Assembly (NCBI GenBank): GCA_032358165.1 | Contig: JAALGY010000037.1 | Coordinates: 645,001 to 709,000 of the forward strand | Source of the DNA: Diplosphaera chodatii | Lineage: Eukaryota > Chlorophyta > Trebouxiophyceae > Prasiolales > Stichococcaceae | Length of the DNA: 64,000 nucleotides | Direction: 5' to 3' | Shown: positions 158 through 64,000 of the stretch, one piece after another | Numbering within the stretch: the stretch's first letter is position 1 | Layout of the letters: every line of letters starts with the position of its first letter | Made by a program: the position numbers and the translations under genes | Notes under the pieces: model-generated | Database searches by the model: none | What the model was told of the DNA's origin: nothing | The model's input: only the letters and a program-made list of their open reading frames with translations

Positions 158-10108
<9,951 letters not shown>

Positions 10109-10682: not shown

Positions 10683-11707
10683 TCACACCCTGCCACCATT
10701 CATGTACTGGGCATTCTCGGCATAGTCGAGGTGTGGCTGCTGCTGCTGTAGATGCTGCTGCTGCTGCAGTTGCACCTGTTGCTGCATCTGCAGCTGGTAC
10801 TGCTGCTGCTGCTGCACACCCGCTGCTTGCTGCTGCTGCAAGCGCAACGCAAGCAGTTGCTGCTGCCGTTGCATCTCCTGTGCCTGTAGGTGAGCAGGTC
10901 TGCGCCTTCACTGGACTGTGCACACATACACGCAAGGGCACAAAACAGGAAACATATTGGTTTAAGAGCTATTAAGCACTTGCTGCAGTATGTGTGTTTG
11001 TAGATCAGCAACCTGTGCCTGCTGGTGTGCCAATGCTGCGGACTCCGGCGTCAGCTGCCGTCTGAACAGCAGGATGTGCGGCTCTGGCTTGTGTATGTGG
11101 TAGTGGATCCAGCCTGCAGTCAACAGCAGGATCTGCGGTTCAGGCAGCAGCAGCCTAACAGGCTCAAGACAGTCTGGGGCATGTGCCTGCTGGGCATCTG
11201 TAAACCATCCTGCAGGCAACTGCAGTCTGTACGCTGATGCTTGCTGCTCAGTTGCGCATCCGCAGTGTCTGTTCACTCACCCCGGGACTGCTGCACGCCG
11301 AGGCCGCGCCACTCCGGCTCCGAAAGCAGCCGGTTGGGTGGCATGTGTGCTGCAATCTGCTGCGGCAGCACCACGTGCCGGTACTCGTAGCAGCTGTTCA
11401 CAGCGTCATATTCGGCATCAGTGCTGCATGCTGCAGTGTTTCACTACATACCGATGCAGTGATCCAGGAGCAACGTGCTGGCTTGCGTCACTGATGCAGC
11501 GTCGCTTTGCGCATGCATGAAACATCACGCATGCACATTCATTGCGGAGTGTTTTGGATCACTCACTCGTCGTAGTACTTGTCACTGCGCAGCACGAACA
11601 CAACAAAGTTTCAGCCATGATCAGCGACAACAGAACACAGTAGCGGCATCAGAACAGCGCTTGCAGCTGCACATACATCAGCACCTGTACTGTATCTCCC
11701 TCGCCAT
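10683..11707 (-). CDS. CKS1: Cyclin-dependent kinase regulatory subunit CKS1 with Gln-rich C-terminal tail
   Basis: CKS proteins bind CDK-cyclin and phosphorylated substrates to promote multisite phosphorylation. Five exons splice cleanly in frame: 11707-11685 (MAREIQY), 11584-11567 (an 18-nt microexon, DKYYD), 11393-11281, 11113-11013 and 10883-10683, giving 151 residues. The family hallmarks are complete: [17 protein letters not shown] at the N-terminus, [17 protein letters not shown] and [19 protein letters not shown], containing the anion-pocket residues and the HxPEPHxLLFRR strand typical of CKS1. The normal domain ends near residue 80. It is followed by about 70 residues dominated by Gln (QQQQ runs) ending MNGGRV. 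Plant CKS proteins also carry short Gln-rich ends, but this one nearly doubles the protein. All junctions use GT-AG. Head-to-head with the NEDD8 gene. Confidence 0.94.
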
Positions 11708-12097
11708 GCAGTTGCACACTCAACACAATGGCAGCGATCGTCGTCGTGCCCAGCGCGTCTTGAACACTACCAACGAAGCCAGTGCTGCTCTGGCAGATGT
11801 TACCGCCGCGCGATTTCAGATAATTCAACAACGAACAAACTCGCAAAGGTTCAGTGCATGCTATATGTGATCAGCCGCGCTTGTGGCGAAACGCTACTGC
11901 TCGGCTCGCTGTTCGTTTCCACTACTGGGCTGCTGTACCAGCTAATCAGACTAGCCCCACAGCGTGAGCTTGTTGCCAATGGGGCGTTGAGGCCTCAGCA
12001 ACCACATCAGGCGAAGTTGCAGCTATAGCGACCCATTGCACAGCTTCACATCTATATCCCCTACAATTTCCTTCGACTGTCGCGGCGTCGTGGCAAC
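11708..12097. promoter_or_regulatory. Shared upstream region of CKS1 and NEDD8/RUB1
   Basis: A 390-base head-to-head intergenic region, probably a bidirectional promoter. This is inferred from orientation; no TATA box or other motif is convincing. Confidence 0.4.
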
Positions 12098-40601: not shown

Positions 40602-43600
40602 ATGGCTGGCTATGGGTTGGATGACAGCGATTTTGACGAGTTTCTGGAGACCAGCAGCGAGGATGAATCTGATGCGGTGTTGCTGGAGGCACCCCTCACG
40701 GCAACCCCAACCGGGCCAGCGGTCCACATCCTCCTCACCAGCTCAGCGCAGCAGCTGCCGCCGGCCACCGCCTGCGGAGACGCCTGTGTGCCAGTGCCGC
40801 CATCAAGGTGTGCGCTGGATCAGTCACGTGCCAGGCCACCCTGGAGCATGAGCGCAGACAGTCATTGGTTGCAGCAATCACTGCAGCACCGTGCTCGAAG
40901 GAGCGGAGTCACAAGGCAGCATGACCAACCCTGCACTTTTCGACTTTGTGCCAACAGCATTATTGTCTGCATCCAGGTGGGATGTGGATGTTGGCTGGGA
41001 TGAGACGCTGCAGCCCAACAAGCGCTTCGGCAGCTTTGTGCAGAATGCGGAGCTGTTTGACGCTACATTCTTTGGCGTGGCTGTGCCAGAAGCGGCGGCG
41101 ATGGACGCACAACAGCGTTTGCTCCTGGAAGCCTCACACACAGCAATGCAGGGCTGCTTGCCTCGCGACCTGCAAGGTGCAGCAAAACCTTGCTGTATGT
41201 CTATGATCAACAATCAGCCTGCATGCAGAAACATTTCGGCCCCGCTGCAGTGCTCAAACAGCCACTATGATGAATTGCAGGAGACCACGAAAAGAATGTC
41301 AGCGTGGCGGTGGGCATCTCATACACAGAGTACTACCTCAACTATGCACAATTCGGCATGACGGCCTTCTCTGCAACATCTGGAACCCTGAGGCAAGCTG
41401 TGCTACGCAACAGAAGGCTGTCGCTGATTCCTCTTGCAGTACTGCAATTAGCTTTGATGCTTGACAACAGACATCTATACTTGACACCTGTTCACCTCGA
41501 GCTGTCCACTGGGGCATGTGCACAACAGCTGCCCATGCATACAAGTGGCATGCCTGCTGTTACAGTTGCTGGTTTGGCCACTACAGCAAGCAACTTGGTC
41601 TCGTCTTGCGTGTCATGTTTGTTGAACTTGTTCATGTTGACGGTACATATGCAACAAACAGCGGCTGCCAAGATCAGTGGAGAGCCTGATGACAGTGTGG
41701 ATGTGCTGCAGCGTGGTGTGTGGGCGCATCAGCTTCACGCTGGGGCTGAAGGGCCCCTCAGTCTCCATCGACACTGCGTGCTCGTCGTCGCTGGTCGGCG
41801 CTCACGTCTCCGCCACCAGCTTCCTGTCAACTTCGTGCCCGAGGTGCTCACTCATTGCGTCTCCAATGTCATGGCACGAGGCAGGCATGCAGCGGGAGCC
41901 TGTCGCAGGAACCCCATCCCAGCGACATGATGCACTGCTTCGAAGTCACAGAGGGCTTTGCGTCCATCTGCAGGGCGCTGGTGGCCGGTGTGAACCTGAC
42001 GATGCGTGCCGAGACAACCGCGGTGCTGGCAAAGGCCGGCATGCTGACGCAGGACGGGCGCTGCAAGACGCTGGACTCGTCAGCAGATGGCTACGCCCGT
42101 GGCGAGGCCTGCGTGGTGAGTTGACAAGACCGATGCACATATGAACGTTCAGCGGGACCTTTATTTCCATGTCTGCTGTATGCTTGATCATCGAGCATCG
42201 TGATGACGTGAAAACAGAGCAGGTATCATCCAAAGGCGTATGCAGGTTGGTGACCATAACCCAAGGACCTTTGTGCAGGTGCACCTCCTGGAGGCTGTGG
42301 AGGAACAGGCTCTGGATGGCCTGCTGTCCCAGGGCGATGCCACAGCAGGGAACGCTGTGGTCATCCACGGCACGGCCGTCAACCAGGACGGGCGGTCCAG
42401 CAGCCTGACGGCGCCCAATGGCCCCTCCCAGCAGCAGGTAAAGCGGCCGGACATACACTGCATATCGTTGGCCAGGACTTGCACAAGTGCACATCACCAC
42501 ATGCAGGGCTAAACCAGGAGCAGCGTCTTCGAGGATGCACAGTGAAGCTTCATATTGTGCCCTGCCAGGTGATCCGCGCGGCTCTACAGGCTGGGCGGGT
42601 GGACCCCAGCACGGTCAGCGCGCTGGAGATGCACGGCACCGGCACCTCGCTGGGCGACCCCATCGAAGTGGGCGCCGCATTCGCGGTGCTGCAGCCGCCC
42701 ACTGAACCTGCCTTCGCAGCAGGTGTGTTGCTCATTCTGGCATGCAGTGTGCGTCTACACTGTGCAGATGAACTTTTCTGGTGAAGCACAATGCTTCTCG
42801 GGACCCCATGAAAGCTGGGCCATGTATAGGCACCGCATTGTGTGCAATCGCTTGCACGGACAGCATGGGGCATGCATCTGCTGGTCGGTTTTCAGGTGTC
42901 AGCACACGAGATGTATGCACACACGATGGCATGTGCATCCACTCGTTGCAGAGACTTGCAAACTGTGCAGTGGAGCACTTTTGTCATGCTATAAACTTCA
43001 GGATATGTCTGGCACGAATGCAAACAACACGAAACCAAGGTGTTGCAACTGCAGCTGTTGTGCTGCATATGGTCGCAACAATGGCACGCTGCCGGCACCG
43101 AATGTCTTGCAATATGCCTGTGATATGGACCAGTCGATGCTGATGGGGTTGCTTCTGTGTCCACGTCGCACAGCCATGCCACTGGAGCTGCCGGCAGCCA
43201 AATCATCGGTGGCGCACACCGAACCAGCAGCCGGGGCGGTTGGTCTCGCAAGTGCTGTCGCCCGGCTGCGGCAGACGGCAACGTCAGCGTTCCTGCACCT
43301 TCGGGGCCTCAACCCCTATGTGCAAAGCATTGCTGCCGGCACCAAGGGCCGCCGTGGGTGGCTGGCGCGGCGGCAGCTGGCGGCCATGCCCGTGCTGGAC
43401 GAGTCCAGGTAATGTCTTGCAAAAGTAACATTACTTGGATCTGTTGCTGTCATCATGTGTAGCCATGCATGCAGATTGCCTGCTACTCTGAAGTATGCTC
43501 TATTAGGATTACCCTGCAGCAGCCGTGAAATCGGTGCGTCATATGTTCCACCCAAATGATATGCAGTTTCAGCAATATCGATTTGCATCAACAGGGACAG

Positions 43601-46600
43601 TGAACCCATCTCAGCACCCATCTCAGCATCAGGCTACTAATCATGTTGTGGCTTTTGACCCGCAGGGCGGGTGTCAGCTCTTTTGCGTACCAGGGCACCA
43701 ACTCGCATGTGGTTGCCGGCATACCCGAGGCCCCCGCTGTCCCGCAGCAGAAGGCCTTGGCATGGCAGCGCGCCCGCTTCTGGTACCAGGTATGCCCTCA
43801 CCAAATCCTACATCCTCGTGCTGCATTTCAGCCAGGTCAGACGAGTGCACCCCAACTGTATCTTGCGAATGCTAGCGATCAAGATGCACGTGGCCTGCGC
43901 TCATCAGTTGGCATGCAAGCTACCTAATTTGGTGTATCATGAACGACATGTCGCTGTCGTTGCTCAGGTGACCTGCCACCCGCTGCTCGGCAGCTGCCGG
44001 CTCAGCGGCAACGGCGCGGTCGAGGTGCAGGTCCTGTTGCCACGCCCAGCAATGGCGTACCTGCGCGACCATCGCATTCAGGTAACTTTGAAATTCACTG
44101 TTGGACCTGCACATATGACTGAAGTGATGGAGACATGTGCATTGCGATTGTGCACCCTGATCCAAGTCACCTTGACGCTCCCGGTCTTTGGGCTGAAATG
44201 AGTTTATGAAACCATGCCGCAGGGCCGACCAATTGCACCGGCCACCTGCATGCTCGAGATGGCCAGCGCAGCCGGCAAGCTGCTTGGCTCTGTGGAAGGC
44301 ACAGCCGGCGCATCAGCAGCCGTCACAAACGCGGCGCTGTCCTCACCGCTGCTGCTGCGCCAGGCAGCAGGCAGCGGTGCACCCGTCACCTGCAGCCTGG
44401 ACCTCCGCAGCGGCGGCGCGCAGCTGCACTCGTCAGCGGCGACTGCAGTGCGAACAACCGTGCACCTGACGGCACAGGTGGCCCGCACTGTCACCACAGC
44501 AGTGGCTGCTCAGACGTATCCCAACTCTGGCCAGCACCCTGACGCCAACGCAGCCGCCAGCAGCCCGGCACGCACCCTGGCAGTGCTGCTGGTCGCTCTG
44601 CGCATTGCTGCCGGGACAGCGTCCGGCCCCCTGGCAGTGGCAGCTGGCATTGACACCAGGTGCCACACAGACAGCAGCTACGACACCCACCCTGCAGTGG
44701 GTGACGCGGCCATACATGCTGGGGCCGCAGCCCGCGCCGCTGGCGACACAACCTTCCTGGTGTCGGCGGCGGTCGGCGCGTACTGCACCCCGCAGGCGCT
44801 GCCGGCAGGCGGCGCCTACACAGCAGTGCACCTGTCGCTGCCGGCTGCAGACGGCTCGGTGATCAGCAGCCACAGGCTGCACAGCAGCGGCAGCGCAGGC
44901 AGCATGCCGAGCATCGGTGCAGTGCATGCGCAGCCAATCGCACGCAGTGCAGCGCCAGCACCAGCTGCAGAGGCAGCACAGCCGTCGCAGGCAGCTGCAG
45001 CATCCTCATCAGCCTCCTCAGCAGCAGCTATTCATGTTCCAGAGTTTGATGACACTTATGTGGACGCGCCACCACAGCCACGGGTGCTGCCAGACACAAT
45101 GCCACCGTTGCAGGACGACTTCCTAGCTCAGGTATGGAAATCAGTGGTTAACATCACTTGGCATCTGGTATTTTGATTTGGATTGTCGCAGACGCTTCCC
45201 CTTGAGCGCCTCCATGGCCACCTATTCACCCTGCCCTCCTTGCTGCTGCAGGTAGCGTCCGCACCGCTGCGGAACGACTTACCCGCCAATTTTGACGCAG
45301 CAGTGGACGAGTTCGAGGGTTGGTGCCGACACCTACTGCTTGCAGCCTTTCAGAAACTGGGGTTCTTTACAGCAGCAGGCGCTTCGGAAACCAAGGCCAG
45401 CATCATGCAGAAGGTCGTGCTTCTGTTGCATGTCCTGCCCCAGTCGACCCTGATCATTTCCAGATGCAGATGTCGGCCAGTACAACCAGTCTCACAGCAC
45501 ATGTTTTGTACCCTGCAGGTGGCAGAGACGCATGACCGCCTGGCATCCGAACTGCTGGCAGTGCTTGCAGCTGCGGGGTATACAACCGTGCACCCCAGCG
45601 GCAGGCACATCGCCACTCATGCCGTGGACAGCCCTGCAACAGCGGCAGCGGTCCGGCAGCTGGATCAGAAAGCAGAGCGGCTGGCTTCAGTTGTGGTGCC
45701 CCAGCTGAAGTCAAACATTCTTTTGATTCACGAATGCATGAAGGCGCTGCCACAGATATTGACAGGTCTGTTGTTCATGCCATCCAGTTCGTGAGCTGCA
45801 AGTGCAGATGACAAGCTGCAAGTCATATGACAGCGCTCTGCAAGATTGACTGTCTTGATGACCCTGCAAACTGACACCCCGAGATCCGCCCAACCGCAGG
45901 GGAGGTGAAGGTGCCCGATGTCATGTTTCAATGGCTCGCCGCATCTTGTGGAGCCCATCTACAAGGATCCCAACTTGTCGGCGCCGTTCAACGAGCAGCT
46001 CGCAGGTTTGCATGTGTATGCCGCCATACGAACTGTTTGGTGCTGAAAGCTGCTGACATCCAGCTCCACCATCCGCATGGTAGGCGTGCGGCATAGCAGC
46101 ACACATAACTGCTGCGTCATTTCCACAGGTGTTGTGCTGGAGTACTGCCGCCGGCGGCTACCTAGTCTGGCACCCAATGACAGCATCCGCATCCTGGAGA
46201 TCGGCTCCGGCTCTGGCGGCACCTCTGCTGTGGTTATGGATGCTCTGACAGCAGCGGCGGCTTCAGCAGCTGCATCTGAGGACAGCGCTGCTGGCAGCAG
46301 CACAGCTGGCGGCAATGGTGGCGGCAATGGGACAGCAGCAGGCGGCAACAGGGACGGCAGCAGTGCCTCAGGCTTGCAGGGTCTCCTGCAGCGCCTGGAG
46401 TTTGTGTACACCGACATCTCGCCGCAGCTCGTGGCCTATGGCCGGAAGACATATGGACCGCACCACCCATACGCCAAGTTCCGGGTGCTGGATGTAGAGC
46501 GGGACGTCGAAGCGCAGGTACAGCACATATTACAATGCTGTCAGGTCGGCATGGTGCATGTCTACATGTTGTGTTCGATCGTGTGCACAAGGGCCTTGCA

Positions 46601-49600
46601 TAGCAGAGGTCCCTCACGCCGGACTGTCTCTGCAGGGCTGCCAGGCAGGCACAACTGACATTGTGTTTGCAACCAATGTGCTGCACGCAACCCGCAACAT
46701 GGGCAACACACTGACGCACAGCAAGGTGCGCTGAGTAGCAGCATTGTCAACGACTAGATGTTCGCACTATTCAGTGCTCACGTGGCCATTGTGATGCATT
46801 GACCCCTACAGCAACACCTCGTGAATTCAGGTGCTGCTGCGGAAGGGCGGCCTGCTGATCGCCAACGAGCTGACCGCCAAGACGAACTTCCTGACGCTCA
46901 CCTTTGGCCTGACGGACGGCTGGTGGCTGTTCGAGGATGCAAAGTGGCGCATACCTGGCGCGCCGCTGCTCAGCAGGTCTGCCTGATTGACGGGGTTGAC
47001 TGTGTATGGTCACGTATGGCCAGACCTGGCCAGATGGCCTGCAATGGTGCAGCATGAGGAACTTGCGATTGCCCAGTCATCTAGATCGTGAGCATGTCCA
47101 GCTGCATGCACATGTGTTGGATCTGTATCACCAGTATGCGCGAGTGGATTCGCATGACAGCTCCAGGCACCATCACCTCGCTAAGCAGGTGGTGCCTGCG
47201 TCTGCGTCAGATCACCAGCGCAGTCTTTGAATTACCCATACTACATAGGTTGGCAACACTCTCAGCATCCCGACTTGCAAGGGCGTGTGCAGTCTCTGTC
47301 AGTTACTCAGTTTCAGCTCATCCAGTGCTCTGCCTGCGGCGCAGGGATGGCTGGGTGGAACTCATGACAGCGCAGGGTTTCGACAGGGCACAACCCGCCG
47401 GCGACATCAGAGCCCGGCCCCGGCTGCTGTCACGGCAGACCGTGGTGGTGGGCATCAGCGACGGCGTCATCCTGCCGCCAGCGGCGGAGCGGGTGCCACG
47501 AGTGCAGCTGCAGGCGTCGCTGCCCCCTCCCACCGATGAGCTGCTCACCAGCGTCAGGTGGATCTTCCATGTTACGCAACCGTGCTACCTAGACGTTATC
47601 CTTACCCTGACCTGAGCATGGCAGCGGAAGTGGCTGCTAGCAAAGCTGTAGAAGTGCAGTACACATAGTATATGGTCTTCTGTATCCGACTCTGAAATGT
47701 CCACCCACCTCACAGGTCCCTGGCGCTGCGCAACGACCTGCTGCCAGGCTTTGATGCGGCAGTGGCTGTGTTCGAGGCCTGGATGCCACTGCTGCTGCTG
47801 CGGGCTGCCCAGACGCTGGGCTTCTTCACGTCGCACGGCGCCACCGCCACATCAGCACAGCTGGGAGCCAAGATTGTACCGGCGTATCGCCGCTTCACTG
47901 CGGAGATGCTGGCGATGCTGCAGCGCGCAGGTGTGTACCTGATCAAATACTTCGAACAACAGGTGTTGTGATTTGGCAACTTCGATGTGGAGGCGTTGCC
48001 TCGTTACCTCGGCGGTGTTCAGTGTCATGGGAACCATGCACGATGCAGGGTTTGTGGAGGCCGACGGGGCAGGCAGCGTAACTGCAACCGCCGCCGTGGC
48101 GTCCGATGACACGAAGCAGCGGCTGGCAGCGCTGCAGCAGACCAAGGAGGAGCTGGAGGCCGGCCCCGCAGCGGACATCGGCTCCAGCATCACGCTGGTG
48201 TGGGCGTGCATGGAGGCCCTCCCCCACATCCTGACAGGTGCCGCCAGCCAGCATTCCCTGCAGTCCATGAAGCCCTGGATATGTTCAGAACTGCATGTCG
48301 GGCGGGCTGTTCGCAGCTCATGTAATGTTGTTTTTGACATCATGCAAGCCCGTTCACCGCCTGTCAAGCCAGTGCATTGGCAGCTTCACGCTATGTGCGC
48401 GTGCGCAGGTGCGGTGGACATTGCGGAGGTGATGCTCCCGGGCGGCTCGCCGCACCTGGTGGAGCCCGTCTACAAGAACCCCAAGCTGTCGGCGCCTTTC
48501 AACGAGCAGCTGGCGGCGGCGGTGGTCGCCCGCGTCCGCCACCTGCTGCCCAGCCTGGGCGCCGACCAACAGGTCAGAGTTAGCACGGACTTGGCAGATA
48601 GCGGTAGATAGCGCCCATCTACAACACTGAGGCACAGGGCATACCTGTGTCTTTTAACATCATACGCTCACGGAATTCGATCCATGTTATATGCTCTGAT
48701 ATGTGACAGGTTCGTATTGTCGAGATCGGCTCTGGGTCTGGCGGCACATCAGCGCCAGTGATGGCGGCGCTGAAGGCAGCCGACGGCGGCGCTCTCCAGC
48801 AGCACGTGGACTTCCTGTACACCGATATCAGCGCACAGCTTGTGGGCTATGGCCGGCGGACCTATGGCGCAACGTACCCATTCGCCCGCTTTAAGGTACG
48901 ACAGCCACTCACACACACAACCTTACTGGTTGCTATGTAAGATGGAGCACGGAGCAATGATGTGTAGTTTCGTCGGGCTGAGGTTGCGACCGATGACGCC
49001 GATGTATATTTCGCTGAGCTCCCCCAAGTGATTCTGATGTGCCAGACCGCTTGATGCACAGTCTCGCACTCTCCCGGAACTGGGCATGTCTTGTAGTCCT
49101 AGGCTGTGGTCGATCACCTTGGTGTCGTGGAAGCAGTTGCTGGACGTGGAGAAGGAGGCAGCGGTGGTGGCGGAGGGCGTCGGCACCTTCGACATCATAT
49201 TCGCCACCAACGTGCTGCACGCCACCCGCAACATGTCCAACACGCTGCTCAACTGCAAGGTAGGCAGCTCAGGCTTCTGCAATCTGGTGCTTCAATAGTT
49301 CGCATGACTGTTTGAGTGCAAGGTCACATCATTTGACTTCCCAAGACTTCATGCACAGGCTGTACTCTGATGTGCGCCTGGCACATTGCAACCTACTCCC
49401 AGTGCCAATATGCAGTCACGAGTCGCTTTGGCAACTTGAAGTTGATGTGCTTGTAGTTGGCTGATTTGCGCAGGCGCTACTGCGGCGGGGCGGCATCCTC
49501 ATCGCCAACGAGCTCACCACGAAGACCGACTTCCTGACACTCACCTTCGGCCTGACGGACGGCTGGTGGCTGTACAATGACCCCCAGTGGCGCATGCCAG

Positions 49601-52600: not shown

Positions 52601-55600
52601 ATGCCCTGGCGGCGGGCGTGGAGGTGCCGGCGGCGGCGACGGGCGTGTACGTGGGCTGCGTGTGGCAGGAGTACCAGCTGCTGCTGGAGCAGCTGGCGGT
52701 GCCGCCCAGCGTCAGCGTCCTCACCGGCAGCGGCATGAACTTCCTGATCGGCCGCGTCTCCTACACCTTCGGCTTCCAGGGTGTGCAGCTGCACCTGCTC
52801 ATTCAGTACAAGCTGAGCTTGCGTAAACACAATCGAAGCGGAGCCTACATGTTGTCAGCAGCATCCTGCACACCTTTGAGTATCACTGCACTAAAGCAAA
52901 AAGAACTCAATCAGAGATCATCGTCACGTCTGCAGGGCCCTGCATCGGCATGGACACAGCCTGCTCCAGCTCCCTGGTGGCGACGCACCTGGCAGCTGCA
53001 GGGCTGGCCAATGGCGAGGCCAAGACATCGGTCGCCGCCGGCGTCAACCTGATGCTGGTGCCCGACACATCCATCCACATGGCGGCGCTGGGCGCTCTAT
53101 CGCCGACTGGCAGGTGGTGGCTGCCTCGAAGCTACTGCACAACCACACGGATGTGCACAGCAATGATGTGTGTGATCCTGACAAGACGGCAGCCGTTACA
53201 ACCTTGTGGCAGCAGCGCCCGCCATGTTCGTATACGTACTCTAGCAATACATGCATGCCACATAGTGGAATGATGCTTGCATGCATACATCAGGTCCAAG
53301 ACATTCGATGCTGAAGCGGATGGGTACGGCCGTGGCGACGGCTGCGTGGTCTTCGTGCTGCGGCCCTCCGGCTCCTCGGCGTCTGCAGCGCCACCGCTTG
53401 CTGTGCTGCAAGGTGGGTGGGCGCCATGGTGCTCAGCACTGATCAGTGCCCACATCATGCCAGTGTGCCTGCATGATGTCTTTGGACAGGCAGCACCATG
53501 TGGCGCGATGCACTGGTGCAGGGTCGGCATACAACCAGGCGGGGCGTTCCAGCGGCCTCACCGCGCCCAACGGCCCTGCACAGACTACGCTCGTCAAGAC
53601 GGCCTTGCAGGTAGCGCTTGCACGACTTCTGTGCACGACACCCGAATGCTGCTGATGCGTCTAGGTAGTTGCAGCACATCGAGGCCCTCCTTTGCTGTGG
53701 CACACCCTGCAGAGCGCTCATGGTCCGATTGCAGGTGGCGCAGCTGGCGCCACAGGACGTGGGCTTTGTCAGCGTGCACGGCACGGGCACGCCGCTGGGG
53801 GACCCCATCGAGGTGGGCGCCCTGGGGCAGGGCCTGGCGGTGCCACGGGGCGAGGCCACGCGCGTCACCCTAGGTGCGTTCCTCAGGGACTGCCAGCCGC
53901 TAAGGGCCCCAGACAGCATGGGCAATGATGCCTGTAAAGGTCGATCCACGTCTGACAATACGCTATCGACTGACGACAATCGACTTCTGAGCCCTTCATC
54001 AAGGGGAGCACGATGCGTTGGCTGTTAAAGTACCAAATTCCACGAGCATCTCTGGTGCTGGGTGCAGGCTCAGTCAAGGCATGCTATGGACATACAGAGG
54101 GTGCTGCTGGTATTCACGGCACGCTGCTGGCTCTGGCTGTCGTGCAGACGCAGGTGGGGTGCTTTGCGGCCTGCTGCAAGGCGGCATGATCCCAGACTCT
54201 GCTCTGATGCACAATCTTTGTCAGTGCTTAGTGCTGTGTTGCAAGTTCACGCCCCGTCATTGCCACATGTTTGCCATGTAGGCAGCGCCTGCCATCATGC
54301 ATGCCCGGTCGCTGAACCCTTATGTCTCAGCAGCGGTGGCAGACTGGGTTACATCATGCAACCTGACACCCATGATCCCCCGGGTAAGCCAACCTGCTTG
54401 CCTGTCTATGCCATAGCAAATAGTACCCTGATCACATCATCTATACGTAGGTCAACCTTGGTTGGGTGAACATCAGCTTCCTGCTGTCAGCCAACTGACG
54501 GGTGATGCAGTTGCAGAAGACTATATTGACATATATAATAGCCTGTCAATGCAGAGCAGGACCTCAGCTGCACGTCCTCCTGATGCAGGAGCAGAGCGTC
54601 GTGGCTCACGGTGCCACAGGCCGAGCCGCCGGCGCCTCCTCCTTCGGCATGAGCGGCGTCAATGCGCACGGCATCTTCACAGGCACCTTCCGATGCCTCC
54701 TTATCATCTTATGCCGAACACTGTGATGGATGCCATATAAGTGCCTGTCAAGCTCAAACAACAGAACAGCATTCGGCAGAGCCTCAGTGCGCATCGTCCT
54801 CGCATCGCAGCTCCGCCGACGGTGCGGGATGCCCCACCTACACCAGGGAGGCCGCCGCTGCTGTGGCACCAGGCGCGGCAGTGGCCGCTGCCGCTGCGCA
54901 GCTTCCTGCTGGGTTCGTGTCTGCCACGCAAGCGTGGCGATACGCTGCACAGGTGTGCAGGCTTGCCTGCGCAAGGCCTTGCACAAGCCATGCACCATGG
55001 CAATGTAGTGACTCTTATGTTTGCAAGGTGCCATATTGCTTACGTGGCACACTCCGACTGCAGAGCAAGCATATGTAACGTTGTCCATAGGTTCGAGACA
55101 CCGCTGCGCATCCCGGCGCTGGGCTACCTCAAGGACCACATCGTTGCCGGGCGCGCCATCCTCCCTGGGGCGGCAATGTTCGAGACGGCGCTCGCGGCGG
55201 CCAGGAGCCTGCAGCCGGACGAGTTGCTGGAAGCAGGGAGCGGCGGCGGCGGCTCCGATGCTGGCTTTGCACTGATGGGCATTGCCATCGTGGCGCCGGT
55301 GCTGCTCTCCGCTGGCGGCGCCGGCGGCGCCCCAACACTGCAGTGCACAGTCGACAGCACAGCTGGCAGCGTCCAGCTTGTGCAGCATCCGGGTGAGCTG
55401 CAGTCATGACAGCGGCTTTGCAGCTTTTCCGGTATGGTGTTGGGTCGGTACCTGTGAGATCTCCAATGCCCACTGTCTATAGATGGAACCTGGGATGCTG
55501 CTTGCACGGGCCCGTCATGACTGCAGAGTATTAGTACTAGGCTCCCGTGCATGCCCTCGCAGGGTCCTCCATACGCAGTGAAACGTGGGTTCACTTGTCA

Positions 55601-58600
55601 CACAAGATCACAAGCTCTGTGATCACAATATATAGCATGCAGTCGAACCACCATGCGTTCTGCCAGCTGCACCTGTAACCAGAAGGTGGTCAAGCCGGCG
55701 GCCGTAGGTGTGCTGCCACATCAATGTGGAGGCATCATCAGGCGTGCAGATGTAGGATGTAGACGGTCTCATCCTTGGCAACACCTTGTAGTGTGGTGCC
55801 ACATGTTGCATGCATCATCACCCAGTTTTGTGTCCCTGCGCTCAGGCCGACAGGCGTGTATGCGCGGAACGCTCGCCGCTGTCGTCGTGGCGGGCGAGAC
55901 TGTCGTGGTGGATGGACTGCAGCCTTCACAGCCACGCTTTGCAAGCCTGGGGCGGCTGTTGCAGTCTGGGGTGTCTGCACCACACATGCATCTCACAGGT
56001 GGGCTTGTCTAGCTGTCCCAATCATTGGCGATGTCCATAGCATTCAGCCCTGTATGCGCGAATCAGCTGACAGCCACTGGAAGCAACCTGCCGTCAGTGG
56101 CCGCTTTGCTTTTGCGCGCATGCAGCCACCCAGACCGATGACACTGGTTTTCACATCAACCATGCCTTTTACCCCTCTGCTATCGCTGCCACTTGCTGTG
56201 CTCATTGACTTCGTGATGGCTGCTACCCCTGCAGGCGCAATTGACTTTGTGGTGCCCAAGGGCTCGGGGTACATCGCCCACCCCGCAGTGACGGACAACT
56301 GCATCCAGCTGGGCCCTGTGTCAGGGCTGCCAGTCCCAGGCGAGGCAGCAGAGCCCCAAGTCACAAGGTATGCACGCACACTGCGTTGCCAGCACGAAGC
56401 GCATGCCATGACATCGCGTCCTGAGACGCGTACACCGGAACACTGGGCAGCCATCGTGCAGTGGTGTGTATGCATGTACATGGCAGCTGTATGCTGGCAT
56501 TCCAACAATCATCTCCTACAGGGTGGTTGGCGGCATGGGTGCGCTGGTGGCATCACCCACAGCCCGCGCCGGCGGCTGGGCGGTGGGCGTGCGGGCGCCG
56601 ACGGCGCCGGACGGCGGCATCACCACCGGCCACGCGCTGCTGGGGGGATGCGGCGGCTCGTGTATGCAGCTGTCAGGCCTCCAGGTGGATATCATGCTGA
56701 GCATCGGCGCTGACTGGTCAGGGGCATTGATATTGTCAGAATTGGCGTTCAGTTGGTCTCCTTCTGATGTACAGGCCAAGGTGGTGTCAGGCGCTGCGCT
56801 GCAGCAGCCTGTGGCTGCCGCCACAGATGCAGCAGCAGCAGAGGCAGCGGACAGGCGGCGAGTCATGTACGAGGTGCAGTGGCAGACGACCTCTGCAGCA
56901 GCAACTGCTGCTGGGACTGCCAGTCGCGGGGCATCCCTGCACAAGGACTGTGCTGTGCTGGCGCTGCACGATCGCGCTGGCGACTTGGTCGGCCAGGTGC
57001 GAAACACATTGAACTTTTCGAAGAGTTCTCGGGGCAAACTGCTCACGAAAGAAACGACTGCCGCCGCCAGCGTCTACATCAGGAACGCCTGACGCTGCAC
57101 ATGCTGCGGCGCCAGGCGTTCCTTGCTGAAGGCCTCTGCTGCGGCAGTCCGCCACTGGTGCAACTCGAGCAGCAGCGTTGTGCATGCACTATGAACCGCC
57201 CTGCTGAGGCTGTGCACAGCTGCAGGACGTTATCTGGGCGCCCAGCACGCCAGGGACAGCCGCACGGCTGGCGGCGGCGCAGGTCGCGGCGCTGCAGCAG
57301 CGGCTGGCGACGCCGCCTGCCAGCTTCCAGCTGCTGGGGGCCGGCGACTCCATCGCAGCCCAGCCAATGCCAGCGCCCATCCGCAGCCGCGGCCGGCAAC
57401 CTGCCGCTGTGCGCTCACTGGCGGCCATGCTGCGGGTGGCGTCGGTCGAGGCACCGGCGGTGCATTTCAGCGCTGTGGAGGTCACGGCTGTGGCTTCGGC
57501 CTCGGATGGCAGGCTCGCAGCCATCACAGCAGCTGTCGCGCCTGCGGCTGGCGACGCGCACGGGCAGAGCCTGTCGGCCGGCGCCTGGCTGGGGCCGCGG
57601 CTGGTTGAGCGGCAGCAGGAGGCAGCAGGCGGCAGCATGGCAGGCATTCACGGCGAGGCCAGCTTCACAGCCCCGGCTGGCCGCATCCTAGTCACAGGTG
57701 AGATTGCATACATGCTGTAAGCGGCCTGCTCATGCACAAGCGTATCAACTAAACGAGGGATACATGGCAGCAGGAGTGCATAACAGGCATGGTCGCCAAT
57801 GCGTGTCTGTGTGGCTGGTGGCAACATCGAATGGCCTATCAACAGCAGGATGTTCCATTGTGGTGTCGTCCATATCCACACAGACACCATTCAGCGACTG
57901 CATTGCAGTGCCACTTGTGCTGTCACACATAAACATATGCCAGCACGGGCAAAGAGAGAGCAGCAACCAAGGCGTCTGGCTTGCGCGCTTTGACCATCCA
58001 ACACATCGGAGCATGACCCATCAACAGGCGGCACCGGCGCGGTGGGGTCGCTGGTGGCGCTGTGGCTGGCGGGCCACGAGGCAAAGCGCATCGTGCTGCT
58101 GGGCCGCTCCGGGCGCTTCCCCGCCGACTCGCCGCTGGCTGCCTACAGGTGTGAGTTTTGCGTGAAGGGTTTGAACAACCCATAACTAGTAGTGGTTCAG
58201 GCAGACCATGTGCATGTCGTTGCCAGCTGCAGCATAGTGCAACGCAGTGCGTTGGCATGGCAGTCCGGGGCATAACACTGGTCGTCATAAAATGCTGCAA
58301 GCCATGGGGTCTACTTTGGGCATGGGACGCACAGCTTCAGCCAGTTTGAAACGCTTGCGGCACGGTGTCCTTTGCCAGGGGGGGCGCCTGCATCACCACT
58401 ACCCGCGCTGATGTGGCGACATGCGAGGAGGCGTGCTTCGCGACGCTCACGTCCGCCTCGCGCGCATCGCCGCTGACCGCCATCATGCACGCTGGCGCTG
58501 TGCTGGACTCCGCTGTCATCTCCAACATCAGCCTGGCCGGCCTGCGCACCGAGTTCGGGTGTGAAAACTGCACTGACCTGTTGACTGCAAAGCAGCAGCA

Positions 58601-61600
58601 AAGCAGTGGAGTACACCCACATGTTTGCGAAGCTGGATTCGTGGCAGCCACACTACTCTCCGATGCATCCGAAGGCATTGCTGGGCTCAAGTGCAGAGTT
58701 CATGCTGCTCCGCAGCGGCAAGGTTGCGGGCGCGGAGGCGCTGGTGCAGCGCACCGGGGCGGCGCCGCTGGTGGCGCTGAACCTGTTCTCCAGCCTGGCG
58801 GCCTTCTCAGGCTCTGGCGGCCAGGGGGCGTACGCCGCCGCCAACGGCTTCCTGGACTCGCACGCCGTGGCGCTGCAGGTGCGCCATTCAGCCGAATGGT
58901 GCAACACCCAATAGTGTGGGAGGACTGAGCTGGGTCTTGAGGGCATCGAGTGTTCCACCTGTATGCAGCTGCACATCCAGTTATTGCAGTGCGGGGATGA
59001 CGGTCGATTGTCAATGGCCCAACCCATGTGCATCGGGCCATTGCAGTAGCGCCCTTCTCGCACTGCAAGCTCCTCGCTGGCTCGTTGCATAGCAACGCTG
59101 CACAGTGAGTGAGGAACTGCAGCATATATGTTGTGAGCAGGTGCCTCAGCCATCATGTTGCGGTGTCTGCGCGTGAGCCCTGGTGTCGACTGTGCGCAGG
59201 CGGCGGGCGGGCCGGCGACGGCGGTGCAGTGGGGCGCGTGGGGCGGGGCGGGCGGCATGGCGGCGCGCACCCCCGGCTTCGTGGGCCGCATGGAGCGCCA
59301 GGGCTTAGGGCTGCTGGCGCCGGAGGCCGGGCTGGCGGTGCTGGCGTCGGTGCTGGGCGGCGCGGCGGGGCCGGGCGCCGGGCAGCTGCCCCAGGCCGTC
59401 ACCGTCGGTGAGTCGATGATGGGCATCTCTGTTCTGCGCGTGTTGGACTGCAGAGCCATGCTGGATCAATGTGACACCGCGTAAGCTTGCCTGACCGTGG
59501 TGTGTATGGATCATGCCATACGTAAGCAGGTGGGCAGTACCACAGATTCAAGTTTACGTAAAATCAAATAGCTTTGTAACAGACAGAACTCATCGAGCGT
59601 GCATGTCTCGTTGCTTCACAGGCAACGTCTTCCTGTGGGACCGCCTGGCCAGGGCAGCGCCCAATCTGCCGGCGGCCTTCCTGGGCGACTTCCTGCGTCC
59701 AGCGTCTGCTGTCGCGGGCGCCGCCCCCGCTGTGCCGGCACCGGCCACAGCGCTCGCCGACCGGACAACAAGCAGGCGGCGCGGTCGCCGCAGCCGCTAC
59801 AGGACTGGCCCTGCTGCGGAGAGGTGACACCTGCATCTGCCAAGCAAGCAGATTCGGGACTGAGACCATCTGAAAACTATCGTGGAAACCTTGCCCAGCT
59901 TCCAGAGTGTCGCATACCCTTGTCGATCCAGCAAATTGGACAGCCGTCTCCCCTCCTTCCAGGTCCGTGGGCCATGCGGAGCACCTGGCAGCAGTCACGG
60001 CAGGCGTCACTGCAGCGGCGCGGGATGTGCTGGGCGCCGGTGTTGCACCCGACCAGCCACTCATGGAGGCCGGCCTGGACTCACTCGGTGCGCAGGCTGC
60101 ACCCTGGTGTATATGAACCATGCCAGTGCCAAATCAGACCACTGCAGGATGCAGCTTCCGAAATGAAATTGCGGCGCTGTGGCACATGTGTATGCTCTAT
60201 GGCCTGACAGCTGAGCATGTGGATGCATGTGAGCAACCTTTGCATTTGTTGCTGCATGTCTTCCTCCCAGGTGCTGTGGAGCTGCGCAATGCGCTGACCA
60301 GCCGCTTTGGCGTGGAGCTGCCGGCGACCGCCACCTTCGACTACCCGAGCATAGCGGCGCTGGCGGGCTACATTGCGCTGCACACGGGGAGCCCTGCCGC
60401 TGGCGCTGCAATAGCAGGCCTCGCTGAGCAGGATGCAGAGGGCGTGACAACAGCCGCGGACCTGGAGTCTGTAAGGTGGGCTCATGGTCAGCAGCACATA
60501 CTGCAGGACTGTCCACTGCTGTCAGGTGAAGGTGGCAGGTCAGCCAGCAGTGCTGAAATCGTGTATTGCATACTGCAGGTCCACTGTCGAGGCTGCTGTG
60601 CGGGATGTCCTGGGTGCTGCTGCAATCGATGCCGACCAGCCACTGATGGAGGCCGGCCTCGACTCCCTGGGTACGCCGCCTGCAGTTCTGTAGCCGTTGA
60701 TGTTCATAGGTCACCATACGACGACGCATGTTGCAGCGGGCCTTGAGGGAAGACCTATTTCTATGATGCAGGTGCTGTGGAGCTGCGCAATGCGCTGAAC
60801 ATGGCCTTCGCTATCGAGCTGCCTGCAACCGCAATCATGGACTACCCAACAGTCGAGGTGCTGACAGGGCACGTGGCAAGCGTAGTGGCGCCATCGCCTC
60901 TCGGGATGACAGGTGCTTTGTCCGCACCATGCAGCTGTCACCTTTGCAGGGCATCAGGAAACAACAAAAACCCAGGCCAGCATTTGCTGAAGGGTCGTCA
61001 TGGCATCATAGCAAATGTGAGCAGTGTCCACACCACTATACTGCGCCTACCTCAAGGCTTGAGGTGGTGCCGCCACTGCTGCCAGGCACGACAGCATTCT
61101 GCAGCCTGGACGGCAGCGCCTGCAGCGATGCTGGGAGCGCGACCACCGCGGTCGTCGGCGTGTCATGCGCCTACCCCGGCCGGGCGGACCCATGCAGCGG
61201 ATCTACATCTGCACATCTTCCAGCTGCTGGCGGCGCGGGTGGATTCTGGGCCAGCGCCTTCTGTGGCGACGACATCCCGACACAGGTGAGGCCTGACACC
61301 CTTTAAAAAACCTTACAAGAGTGCCAAGTGTGCTGTCATTTCTCGGCAGACATCGAACAACATGTGGATATCAACACTATCAACACCGATGCAATGCATG
61401 GGGTCAAACAATGTAGATGGTAAAGTAGTCTGCAGCCTACGGTAGCATGAAGGTCGCATCCTGTGGTTGCCCTAATGCCCATTACGAGGCCAAAGCTTGT
61501 TCCAGGCAAACGATTGGGTGATCAGCAGGCAGGACATCATCTGCAGGCATCATAATGGCTGTTAGGGTCACCTCAGCCCAACACACCTCTCCTTACCCAC

Positions 61601-64000
61601 GTGTGCTTCATCCACCACGCACCAGGCTTCAGCTGACGTTGCACACAGACCCTGCCTGTGTTGCTGCCCCAGATGGCCCGCCCTCACGGTTCATAGCACT
61701 GTGGGTACGTGCATCAGCGCAGCAAGACTTAAACGGCAGAGTGCAACGTCGAATCGAACGCCTTTGCGTAGTTGATGGAGTGTCCCTGGGCTGGGGGGCT
61801 GGTCAACCTCTTGCAGTCAGGCTGGCTCACAGTAGACCTACATTGTCTGCGCAACTGCTTGCACAAAGTACTTGCTGTGCAAGGAGCACCCACACCCTGC
61901 GTCTGTGGCACTGGATGTGCGGCATGGGTCGTCCGGTCCCCATCTGTTTGGTTGAGGCTGCCTGGTCATGCTACTGTGGCAATCATGACCATAGCAGGAT
62001 GGCAGGAGGAACACTAACAGGTCACGACTTGGACTGATGGACGGCAGTGGTGCTGGCGACAGGTGCCGGCGGAGCGCTGGGACATCGAGGCGGCCTACTC
62101 ACCGGACGTGGTCACCAACAAGATGTACGTTCGCCACGCCGGCTTCCTGCGCGCTGTGGACGCCTTTGACGCCGACGCCTTTAGGTGTGATCAAATGGGA
62201 CTTGGCAGGTTACAGTCAGCAGAGCATGCCAGCTGTTTAGTGGGCTCTGCTTACAGCCTGAGGACCATCGGGCTGAATCGCCATTTATATGTAAAGTCAC
62301 AAGCACATTACATAGTCTGAGTGCAGCACCTTGACACTCTATGCTGCACCGTCTGCCATAATTGTGCCTACGGTGTCAGTGACGGCGCCTAGCGGCTGCA
62401 CCCAGGGTTAGTAGCTACAATCATCTGTGCTGCCTGCTGAGCTCAGAGTGGCAGTGGATCTACATTGCCAACCATGCACCTGTTGCCAGGCAGGATGTCT
62501 ATTTGACTGCCCAAGTCTGTGCGCTTCATCAATGCATTTCTGCATGCAGGAGTGTTGGCACCCAAATCTGACCTTGCTGAGACTACTCATTGCAGGTTGT
62601 CGGGCAACGAGGCTGCAGTGATGGACCCGCAAGGCCGTGTGCTGCTAGAAACGACAGCAGGAGCGCTGGCCGACACAGTGGCGGGTGCTACAGGGCCGGC
62701 GCCAGCTGCAACTGGCGTGTATGTGGGCGTCATGCACATGGAGTACATCCAATACATGACAGGTGTGTAGTGATTTTGGATATCCTTGCTCACCCATAAG
62801 CCGCACAGAGCAACAAGTTACTTGATGCTCATCCATTAGGTACACCATTGCAATCTTCCACATCATGTGTAAACGAGCTTGCAGCTGTATGTCTGGGCGG
62901 GACACCCTCCCTGTTTTCAACAAAGTTTTACAGCCTATCTACCTACACGTCACTTTTCCTGACTGTTCTGCCGCCCTCTGTGCATTGTGTGCACAGGTGT
63001 CGGATTGAACAGCCAGTGCCCTGTAGGTGACAATGCATGCATCGCGGCGCAGTAGTCCAGCACTGGACATCACTGGGTCTGCAGTTGTCGATAGGTGGTC
63101 AGTCGACGCACCTGTCAGTCGATGACCATGACGATTGCCATCTCATGCATTGCAATCTATGTGCGCAGGGCTGGGGGTCAAAGTGGGGCCCGCGGTGTCG
63201 ACCGGCAACGGCATGGACTTCCTGGTCGGCCGCCTATCCTACACCTTCGGCCTCACAGGTGCCTGGCACTGGATACCCGAACCAGCGTGGTTTCTGAACA
63301 TCAATCTGAGCTCTGCTTTTGCTCGCTTGCATCGGCTGCTGAGCAGCAGCAGATGCTGTGTTAGTGAAGCCGAGCTCAGGTTGACACATGTCAAAAAGTC
63401 ACCCTTCAATCGTTGGCAGCAACCCCAACCTCGTGTGCCTCATCACTTGACGTGCAGGCCCGTGCCTGGCCACACACACCGCCTGCTCCAGCTCGCTGGT
63501 GGCGACGCACCTGGCCGCTACGGGGCTGGCGGCGGGGGAGGCGGGCGCGGCCGTGGCGGCGGGCGTGTTCCTCATCCTGCTGGGCGGCACCATGGCCGGC
63601 ATCTGCCAGCTGCAGGTGTTGAGAAAGGGCTATCAAGAGGGGCACAGTGTATGTAGCTTGTGCTGGTTGGGTAGCCGGTCCTTGTCATTCAACCGTTTGC
63701 TGTAGCATTCACCAAGTATCCGAAGATCCACATATGTGCTGGATCTCTAATTGTGATGTCATAGGCCTTTTCGCCGGTGGGGCGCTGCCGCACATTTGAC
63801 GCTGCCGCCGATGGCTATGGCCGCGGCGAGGGCTGCGTGGCGGTCGTGCTGAAGCCCGGTGCAGATAGCCTCGAGACCGACAGCAGCAAAGTTGGTGGCA
63901 TCTGCAATGGCAGCATCGCTGTGCTGCGGGGTTCGGCCGTCAACCAGGACGGGCGCTCCAGCAGCCTGACTGCGCCCAACGGGCCCTCCCAGAGCGCCCT
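40602..64000 (+). CDS. Giant multimodular type I polyketide synthase, AT-less, truncated by the window edge
   Basis: Assembly-line enzyme that builds a polyketide by condensation, reduction, dehydration and C-methylation on ACP-tethered intermediates. Visible order: KS1-DH1-cMT1-cMT2-ACP1-ACP2-ACP3-KS2-DH2-KR-ACP4-ACP5-KS3. No AT motif (GHSxGE) is seen in the KS-to-DH linkers or elsewhere, so malonyl loading must be in trans; AT displacement in trans has been reported for green-algal PKSs. The start at 40602 ([20 protein letters not shown]) gives a short acidic N-terminus and no loading domain; exon 1 ends at 40807 and splices in phase to 40875 or 40887. Dozens of short introns, one GC-AG (41393-41711). 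An apparent frameshift lies near 45929 in cMT1. Product unknown; no ER or thioesterase is reached before 64000. Confidence 0.95.
40875..43720 (+). other. PKS ketosynthase domain KS1
   Basis: Decarboxylative condensation domain. Motifs: [13 protein letters not shown] (N-terminal boundary), [36 protein letters not shown], then [11 protein letters not shown] with the catalytic Cys codon at 41779-41781. Further on are the second-motif [17 protein letters not shown] (His 42632-42634), [17 protein letters not shown] with the third-site Lys and His (about 43200), and [13 protein letters not shown] at the end. All catalytic residues are present. The usual VGMxCRFPG opening is missing, so the domain is N-terminally short or an exon is unrecognised. 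Confidence 0.92.
41393..41711 (+). other. GC-AG intron inside KS1
   Basis: The donor is AG|GCAAG at 41393, matching the strict GC-donor consensus; the acceptor is CTGCAG ending at 41711. Joining gives SATSGTLS then [11 protein letters not shown] in frame across a conserved KS segment. No GT donor near the junction keeps the conserved residues. Confidence 0.75.
43968..45131 (+). other. PKS dehydratase domain DH1
   Basis: Double-hotdog dehydratase. After the [11 protein letters not shown] opening, LRDHRIQGRPIAP spans an intron (44082-44222) and satisfies HxxxGxxxxP. The second half has [16 protein letters not shown] in place of HPAxLDxxxQ: the Asp is present, but Gln is replaced by His. An Ala/Ser-rich linker follows. 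No KR accompanies it in this module. Confidence 0.82.
45252..47557 (+). other. PKS C-methyltransferase domain cMT1
   Basis: SAM-dependent carbon methyltransferase. It opens [18 protein letters not shown] and has SAM motif [14 protein letters not shown] (about 46190). Then come [56 protein letters not shown] and [20 protein letters not shown]. All landmarks of PKS cMT domains are there. The exon at 45900-46005 changes frame between VPDVMF and [14 protein letters not shown], so the domain may be broken or the sequence may hold an error. Confidence 0.87.
47717..50102 (+). other. PKS C-methyltransferase domain cMT2
   Basis: A second, closely similar methyltransferase directly after cMT1: [40 protein letters not shown], motif [16 protein letters not shown] (48711), [58 protein letters not shown] and [20 protein letters not shown]. 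It appears intact. Two introns (after xLTG, and before xLLRxGG) fall at the same codons as in cMT1, which supports tandem duplication. Confidence 0.9.
50212..50660 (+). other. PKS acyl carrier protein ACP1
   Basis: [20 protein letters not shown] then LDSIG, joined across the intron 50297-50483 to [20 protein letters not shown] and a [11 protein letters not shown] end. Phosphopantetheine serine codon 50290-50292. First of three tandem ACPs. Confidence 0.93.
50670..51246 (+). other. PKS acyl carrier protein ACP2
   Basis: [32 protein letters not shown], then the intron 50769-51037, then [20 protein letters not shown] and [12 protein letters not shown]. Serine codon 50762-50764. Its first half shares an exon with the end of ACP1. 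Confidence 0.93.
51429..51753 (+). other. PKS acyl carrier protein ACP3
   Basis: [20 protein letters not shown] then GLDSIG, the intron 51505-51622, then [20 protein letters not shown] and [13 protein letters not shown]. Serine codon 51498-51500. Confidence 0.93.
52069..54680 (+). other. PKS ketosynthase domain KS2
   Basis: Motifs: [60 protein letters not shown], then [18 protein letters not shown] with Cys codon 52962-52964. [16 protein letters not shown] carries His 53777-53779, then [17 protein letters not shown], and [14 protein letters not shown] closes the domain. All catalytic residues are present. The opening VGMxxRFPG segment was not found between ACP3 and this exon. Confidence 0.92.
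55091..56690 (+). other. PKS dehydratase domain DH2
   Basis: [20 protein letters not shown] then [18 protein letters not shown] gives HxxxGxxxxP (His codon 55137-55139). The second half has [15 protein letters not shown] with the conserved DxxxQ. It starts only about 400 bases after the end of KS2, leaving no room for an AT. Confidence 0.87.
57225..59700 (+). other. PKS ketoreductase domain KR
   Basis: A structural half ([30 protein letters not shown]) is followed by a NADPH site [20 protein letters not shown] built across an intron. Next are [14 protein letters not shown] (58480) and the active site [20 protein letters not shown] then ANGFLD, with Tyr codon 58831-58833 and Asn 58843-58845. 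[17 protein letters not shown] and [20 protein letters not shown] complete it. Catalytic Ser, Tyr and Asn are all present. Confidence 0.9.
59960..60440 (+). other. PKS acyl carrier protein ACP4
   Basis: [20 protein letters not shown] then LDSLG, the intron 60088-60270, then [20 protein letters not shown] and [13 protein letters not shown]. Serine codon 60081-60083. Confidence 0.92.
60583..60912 (+). other. PKS acyl carrier protein ACP5
   Basis: [31 protein letters not shown], an intron beginning at 60671, then [20 protein letters not shown] and [13 protein letters not shown]. Serine codon 60664-60666. Confidence 0.92.
61055..64000 (+). other. PKS ketosynthase domain KS3, cut by the window edge
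   Basis: The only KS here with the usual opening: [17 protein letters not shown], then [14 protein letters not shown], a 777-base intron (61286-62062), [58 protein letters not shown] and [16 protein letters not shown]. The active site reads THTACSSSL with Cys codon 63484-63486; His replaces the usual Asp three residues before Cys. Then [20 protein letters not shown] and [20 protein letters not shown] at the edge. The second and third catalytic residues lie beyond the window. Confidence 0.92.

Follow-up and report, generated by a model that had tools for sequence, protein, structure and literature searches.

How does a multimodular polyketide synthase (PKS) of a green alga obtain its extender units when its modules carry no acyltransferase (AT), and is it built like the bacterial lines that share this trait? 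The question is raised by a locus in the nuclear genome of Diplosphaera chodatii (assembly of 85.6 Mb in 55 contigs), which enters the stretch of 64,000 nucleotides analysed here (the window, C31:645,001-709,000, C31 being contig JAALGY010000037.1). The 5' part of the PKS gene occupies 40602..64000 of the window on the plus strand, as placed by a gene model and by a start ATG and N-terminal motif shared with Myrmecia bisecta protein P0121; positions without a contig name are window positions. We read C31:681,001-811,000, C35:3,295,001-3,385,000 and C9:1,015,001-1,065,000, the last covering modules 6, from its dehydratase (DH), to 10 of the C9 copy, trained a splice-aware gene finder on these stretches, and scanned the resulting models with our own profiles and Pfam. 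The gene probably encodes a type I PKS that works non-iteratively and belongs to the chlorophyte trans-AT group, with a mass of about 1.5 MDa should the whole be a single polypeptide. The results support the AT-less multimodular PKS that an earlier note had read from this DNA.

The KS-to-DH junction and the absent acyltransferase

The AT was sought with a profile built from four bacterial cis-ATs, E. coli FabD and a discrete Diplosphaera malonyl-CoA:ACP transacylase (MCAT) encoded on C29, run against all six-frame open reading frames (ORFs) of at least 15 amino acids in the three PKS loci (C31, C35 and C9), with two discrete AT loci as controls. The best match in any PKS locus read reaches only E 0.7. 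The C29 control, a member of the training set, gives five matching ORFs (1.7e-22 to 3.8e-6). The C13 control, to which we assign about five exons by eye, was held out and yields four matching ORFs, one at 0.052 and the others between 2.4e-10 and 2.6e-8. On the gene strands, a ketosynthase (KS) scan of the same PKS loci returns 67 (C31), 45 (C35) and 26 (C9) matches below 1e-3, against none on the opposite strand. GHSxG is absent at the AT position, and a scan of the forward frames from 40000 to 128000 meets GHS.[GA] just twice, once within KS7 (101547) and once at 88437, shortly ahead of a stop. Pfam PF00698 finds no AT in the whole genome, a null that carries little weight because the search also missed the discrete ATs; it was rejected as proof of absence when a FabD protein search later found discrete AT exons. 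Hidden exons and the modules to the right of the window, where an AT would have refuted the earlier note by its own test, were covered across all ten modules, and none was detected.

The junction between KS and DH leaves little room for such a domain. In module 1, the KS1 end and junction (43666..43789, plus strand) read GTNSH, 18 residues and WQRARFW, which resembles a post-AT linker. Seventeen of the 21 KSs carry a W-x-R-x-R-F-W-like motif, which we take to be a post-AT linker remnant, 10-24 residues after the KS end (GTNAH type), and the DH follows. Specifically, the motif stands at 18, 10, 22, 21, 20, 19, 20 and 22 residues in eight of the ten C31 modules, at 18-22 residues in four of five C9 KSs, and at 20-24 in five of six C35 KSs. 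The unmatched junctions fell outside the pattern, KS7 reading LPWAYARMY by eye, and a second NAH-like match within KS8, 72 residues ahead of the motif, was not counted. The motif search and these measurements bear out the short KS-to-DH gaps without GHSxGE described earlier. Because the linker-like motif starts so soon after the KS, the KS-AT linker seems to be missing along with the AT itself.

Four bacterial proteins with no AT in their Pfam lists (P0058, P0072, P0081 and P0088) place 216-219 residues between KS and post-AT motif, against 10-24 in the C31, C9 and C35 PKSs, in a database comparison where the strict motif fits 9 of the 58 sites listed. The distance is 426-514 residues in proteins with a listed AT (P0040, P0074 and P0098) and 418 in P0067, which has no AT listed; P0092, at 98 residues, was dropped as not linker-like. 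Among relatives, P0001, P0007 and P0018 carry the motif 19-22 residues after the KS (P0003 at 37, doubtful), and P0011, P0022, P0023, P0024 and P0026 show the DH motif 63-67 residues past the KS.

The ten-module line, its loaders and its extent

Module 1 (40602-51753) is ordered KS-DH-cMT-cMT-ACP-ACP-ACP, with cMT a C-methyltransferase and ACP an acyl carrier protein, and module 2 (~51837-60912) is ordered KS-DH-KR-ACP-ACP, with KR a ketoreductase; all features lie on the plus strand. The first exon (40602..40807, by eye against P0121) leads through an N-terminal extension straight into KS1, and no loading or adenylation domain is seen in it ahead of that KS. KS1 (40966..43714; own profile, Pfam E 2.1e-46) is followed by the module 1 DH (43968..44858), which reads HRIQGRPIAP given a splice at 44082 chosen by eye and falls under the Pfam gathering score (23.7 bits versus 27). 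The methyltransferases cMT1, with an N-terminal lid whose exons the gene model partly misses (45252..47557), and cMT2 (47716..50103) are 51% identical and pass Pfam Methyltransf_12 at E 4.4e-11 and 2.1e-13. They precede ACPs 1a (50227..50602), 1b (50699..51153) and 1c (51435..51738). Module 2 comprises KS2 (51906..54682), a DH (54858..56627; own profile, Pfam PKS_DH_N 2.2e-10), a KR (57277..59680; own profile, Pfam 4.4e-34) and ACPs 2a (60021..60380) and 2b (60598..60887), after which KS3 (61229..64000, HTACSS at 63475) extends beyond the window edge. The KS2, KS3 and window ACP calls are based on profiles built in this analysis. Two full modules and part of a third without an AT, as first proposed, are confirmed by these profile and Pfam calls; the KS, DH, cMT, KR and ACP content named in the earlier note stands, and to it are added the second cMT of module 1, the missing KR of that module, and the tandem ACPs.

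Beyond the window, the gene model continues to position 139,287 on the window scale (about C31:784,287), giving a plus-strand gene of 98.7 kb with 237 exons (mean length 175 bases) and a predicted protein of about 15,000 amino acids in ten modules. The finder settled on donors CAG/GTG and acceptors TGCAG/G, and KS matches on C31 span 685,972 to 769,682. On the gene strand of 40602-139287, [DH]TACSS and HGTGT each occur ten times and on the opposite strand not once, which excludes a chance origin. In the model, module 1 (M1) is followed by M2 and M3 (KS-DH-KR-ACPx2; KS-DH-ER-KR-ACPx2, with ER an enoylreductase), M4 to M6 (KS-DH-KR-ACP; KS-DH-KR-ACPx3; KS-DH-KR-ACPx2), M7 to M9 (KS-DH-KR-ACP; KS-DH-KR-ACPx2; KS-DH-KR-ACP) and M10, KS-DH-KR-ACP-TE-ACP-TE with two thioesterases (TEs) and a hydrophobic helix. 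The profile scan of the model counts 19 ACP matches, and the ER of M3 is backed by Pfam ADH_N (2.4e-9). HxxxGxxxxP is present in the DHs of M2, M5, M6, M8 and M9 and, with a hand-read splice, M1. It is lost in M7 and altered in M10, where H and G are kept and P is replaced, both homeologs being alike in these changes, and it is not readable in the model for M3 and M4.

This order suggests a route. Since KS1 stands at the N-terminus, the starter would be taken from another protein, and malonyl would be loaded onto all ACPs by a discrete AT of the MCAT type, either C13/C22 or C29/C30 (plastid-type). Module 1, having no KR, would leave a beta-ketone, and its two cMTs would most likely methylate the alpha carbon, yielding a mono- or gem-dimethylated beta-keto unit. 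The later modules would build a chain that is unsaturated for the most part, fully reduced at one position (M3), and likely to bear hydroxyl or keto groups at M7 and M10, the two modules with degenerate DH motifs. Release of the chain would then fall to one or both cysteine thioesterases, perhaps at a membrane.

The earlier note had suggested a search of the rest of the genome for discrete transacylases and 4'-phosphopantetheinyl transferases (PPTases), which turned up two AT pairs and one PPTase pair. The FabD search returns the discrete pairs C29/C30 and C13/C22 and one further match at E 0.51; the PPTase exons lie on C47 and C15. The C29 protein reads as an MCAT with GLSLGEYTA and is presumably the plastid-type enzyme of plastid fatty acid synthesis, and the part of the C13 protein that was read shares 45% identity with it. 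A search with the C13 AT gives 16 matches, 14 of them in the two AT gene pairs and two at E ~0.2. That the plastid MCAT of C29/C30, and not C13/C22, loads the extender is a serious contender, with a chance only somewhat short of even: its protein has the MCAT signature and just two AT gene pairs were found in the genome, whereas the second AT, at 45% identity, is kept in both subgenomes. Confinement of the C13 AT to PKS-bearing algae was not borne out, for the 120 matches listed of 5,844 include relatives from many metagenomes, Trebouxia (63%) and Tetradesmus (65%) at about 59-66% identity, and from Ostreococcus at 52%.

Several points weigh against the reading as a single trans-AT line of ten modules. 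Both C29 and C13 are candidate loaders only, and the C13 AT appears not clearly PKS-specific because of its relatives in Trebouxia, Tetradesmus and Ostreococcus. The DH of module 1 looks intact though the module has no KR. The model shows no KR motifs in M4, lacks the nucleotide motif in M7, and lacks the Ser/Tyr motif in M10; KR profile matches are present in M9 and M10. Moreover, the gene model is self-trained, ab initio and drawn from sequence only, it misses or misplaces exons at the start, in the M4 DH, at the M10 junction and in the cMT1 lid, and early training rounds 2 and 3 split the locus after module 1 (end 51783, new start 52083). The C9 copy was covered from the M6 DH to M10 only, and C21 lies outside the stretches read.

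At the start of the gene, the N-terminus GLEDSDWDEFLE ... CGDACRLVPPNRWEVD is common to the window (ATG 40602, splice near 40807/40977 by eye) and to Myrmecia P0121, so the start at 40602 given earlier is right and the finder's own start at 40921 was rejected. As to its continuity, two or more adjacent PKS genes encoding separate subunits may have been joined by the finder, which we regard as unlikely, at about one chance in four. The end at 51783 and restart at 52083 in rounds 2 and 3 would fit such subunits, and the finder is unreliable on gene ends, since it fused the upstream gene in a later run and joins HemD-type exons to the C35 PKS. In the excerpted literature, separate chains are mentioned as possible for Chlorella variabilis (PMC4661987) and split forms for some species (O'Neill, PMC7073580). 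Yet the final model runs through the locus without a gene break, the database protein P0001 holds KS1-DH-ACP-ACP-KS2 in one predicted chain, and the megasynthase is often one protein according to the same excerpts of O'Neill (PMC7073580).

Judged by eye, the neighbours of the PKS in the window resemble housekeeping genes, so no gene cluster is seen around it there. A predicted minus-strand gene at 36633-39366, which we take to resemble a splicing factor, adjoins the PKS in a divergent arrangement.

The methyltransferase pair and the doubled ACP-TE end

Module 1 gives no KR-profile match. Both of its cMTs carry the S-adenosylmethionine (SAM) motif, the NVLHAT region and NEL, whose residues are presumably catalytic. 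Among solved proteins, cMT2 comes closest to DisA (6cca; 6.3e-62), followed by AprA MT2 and CurJ, and a genome search with cMT2 yields 16 matches (E up to 0.01), all on C31 and C9 with two copies each. The AprA cMTs act in a loading module with a GNAT domain (excerpts of PMC3075265), whereas here two adjacent cMTs lie in a KS module. The Myrmecia cMT is nearer to cMT2 (60% identical) than to cMT1 (51%), so the duplication probably predates the split from Myrmecia. Nine metagenomic proteins (P0001, P0003, P0006-P0010, P0012 and P0014) read DH-ACP-ACP-KS with no cMT or KR match, and P0022 reads DH-ACP-KS, likewise with neither; these are fragments, and P0008, P0009, P0010 and P0012 are near-identical, so they do not amount to ten independent cases. 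C31 KS2, Apatococcus P0004 and the KSs of these proteins form one group with 100/100 support. The metagenomic proteins share with the C31 line a DH-ACP(-ACP)-KS order without KR and differ in having no cMT between DH and ACP, which makes the KR-less module 1 look ancestral and the cMT pair inserted. The gem-dimethyl reading of the pair is an inference, and the second cMT could be idle.

At the opposite end, both TEs match Pfam Thioesterase (1.3e-49 over two stretches). The nearest solved structures to TE1 are 3qmw and RifR, which we take to be type II thioesterases, and FGTCLGA aligns with FGHSMGA. All four TE copies read (C31 and C9) have GTCLG instead of GxSxG as the nucleophile motif and retain the motifs for Cys, Asp and His. 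Past the end of TE2, its last exon stays in frame across a stretch rich in Pro, Ala and Gln and reaches RRIENWAKLQVGLALLSVPALLLGVW, which is identical in C9. The C-terminal hydrophobic helix lies in the same exon (C31:781,630-782,276); it takes second place by hydropathy within the protein, from which we guess that it is a membrane anchor.

Taken together, these features allow a bolder reading, which we offer tentatively and consider improbable as a whole. It would be a eukaryotic trans-AT line that has lost the whole AT region including the linker, with only the post-AT motif left. The two cMTs of its KR-less module 1 would make a quaternary gem-dimethyl carbon, and two ACP-cysteine-TE repeats on a membrane-anchored tail would be suited to release by condensation (a dimer, lactone or surface polyester) over hydrolysis. 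Literature searches gave no precedent for KS-DH-cMT-cMT-ACPx3 without KR or for ACP-TE-ACP-TE with cysteine, the domain order of CsuPKS1 standing outside the comparison.

Kinship and constraint

The AT-less algal PKS is a known kind, because Shelest et al. and O'Neill describe it, and the novelty implied by the title of the earlier note is already in print (PMC4661987). Of the roughly 30 non-iterative algal PKSs in the excerpts of Shelest et al. (2015, PMC4661987), nearly all are without AT and most are without a methyltransferase (MT), CsuPKS1 of Coccomyxa subellipsoidea having one; in Table 1, Coccomyxa is listed with a single PKS of 10 KSs, which we infer to be CsuPKS1. CsuPKS1 is likewise multimodular, AT-less, very large and MT-bearing. 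Most chlorophyte trans-AT PKSs there have no MT, whereas the C31 PKS has two cMTs, the absence of MT being common and not defining. O'Neill (2020, PMC7073580), like Shelest et al., treats the lack of AT as typical among chlorophyte megasynthases, and describes AT-less ones of 10-11 modules with an N-terminal A domain, that of Chlamydomonas being linked by disruption to zygote development. The Chlamydomonas reinhardtii PKS1-type enzyme is alike in being AT-less, in its 10-11 modules and in a TE in the figure legend; it differs in its N-terminal adenylation domain, the C31 PKS starting with KS1 like that of Myrmecia, and in its last two modules, which are without reduction, whereas M9 and M10 of C31 carry KR. 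Myrmecia bisecta P0121, with the same N-terminal motif, a 65% identical KS1 and the cMT close to cMT2, differs in being annotated at 627 amino acids with one cMT.

In a KS tree of 35 rows, a clade with 100/100 support unites 23 (all those of C31 and C35 and seven relatives) and leaves out the sampled AT-less bacterial KSs, which are few and are labelled AT-less from their Pfam lists. Within the C31 line, KS1 falls with Myrmecia and P0001, KS2 falls with Apatococcus, and KS6 with Elliptochloris; these groupings indicate that trebouxiophytes have conserved parts of the line. KS5 groups with KS8, beside another Elliptochloris KS, which suggests a module duplication. Bacterial trans-AT PKSs resemble the C31 line in their AT-less modules, an AT acting in trans (as it would here), tandem ACPs and cMTs in line. 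The earlier phrase "as in bacterial trans-AT systems" is not supported as far as the build goes, given the apparent loss of the KS-AT linker and an algal clade separate from the few AT-less bacterial KSs sampled. A bacterial trans-AT PKS gained by horizontal transfer is very improbable on the same grounds: the closest match of cMT2 is a cMT from a bacterial PKS (DisA) and tandem ACPs are common in bacterial lines, but the gene is intron-rich, its KSs fall outside the AT-less bacterial KSs sampled, the linker kept by the four AT-less bacterial proteins seems to be missing, and no AT was found nearby.

C9 carries a colinear copy of the C31 PKS with the same cMT pair and doubled TE. Across M6-M10, 6,979 aligned codons give 88.6% identical residues, dN 0.066, dS 0.34 and a ratio of 0.195, or 0.174 over 6,776 well-aligned codons. 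By part, the ratio is 0.071 in ACP-TE1, 0.09-0.18 in four KSs, 0.253 in the M7 DH, 0.269 in the C-tail, and highest, 0.396, in the M10 DH. M6-M10 are under purifying selection between the two copies. A decaying, non-functional gene is slightly less probable even than horizontal transfer: the lost M7 and degenerate M10 DH motifs and the KR motifs unseen in M4 and partly missing in the M7 and M10 models would fit decay, but the ratio of 0.17-0.20 over 6,776-6,979 codons, the full sets of [DH]TACSS and HGTGT (10/10 each), and the sharing of the M7 and M10 DH changes by both copies oppose it. Scarcely credible, finally, is a cis-AT in unrecognised short exons, which could appeal to the mean exon length, to a Pfam AT search blind to existing discrete ATs and so insensitive alone, and to an AT profile that missed one short C13 exon and scored another only 0.052, whereas eight ORFs of the two discrete ATs fall below E 1e-5, the PKS loci offer nothing better than E 0.7, and at the junctions measured the linker motif follows after 10-24 residues.

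The checked nuclear loci are paired (C9/C31, C21/C35, C15/C47, C10/C37, C29/C30, C13/C22 and C26/C27, and also window 2000-12000; by kind, four KS-locus, two AT, one PPTase and three RPB2-family), and a plastid-type rpoB on C55 is single. Long C31/C9 blocks are about 75-82% identical and colinear including the flanks, with dS ~0.33. Two diverged subgenomes, from a hybrid or an old duplication, seem to be present in the assembly; nothing relevant to two subgenomes in Trebouxiophyceae was among the literature matches listed. C35 carries a second PKS with six KSs and an ACP ahead of the first, where a suspected GNAT loading domain was dropped, having no Pfam support. Nup98-type autopeptidase S59 exons (Pfam 1.6e-22) follow its last ACP on the same strand (C35:3303183-3302217) and recur at C21:201357-202420, beyond the C21 KS exons, with weaker Nup98-like matches at C53 and C13; the finder joins the S59 exons to the PKS in C35, a possible but unproven fusion. 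Upstream of that PKS lie HEM4 uroporphyrinogen-III synthase exons (1.3e-22; C35:3384722-3382345), which the finder also joins to it, rightly or wrongly.

Hardly anything is known of what green-algal megasynthases make, and the architecture described here predicts up to two SAM-derived methyls on one module 1 carbon, two candidate loaders and a cysteine release site. The KS-to-DH junction supplies sequence evidence on how the AT was lost, with catalytic domain and linker apparently gone and the post-AT motif left in most modules. It raises the question of how a discrete AT would find its ACPs without the linker that the measured AT-less bacterial proteins have kept.

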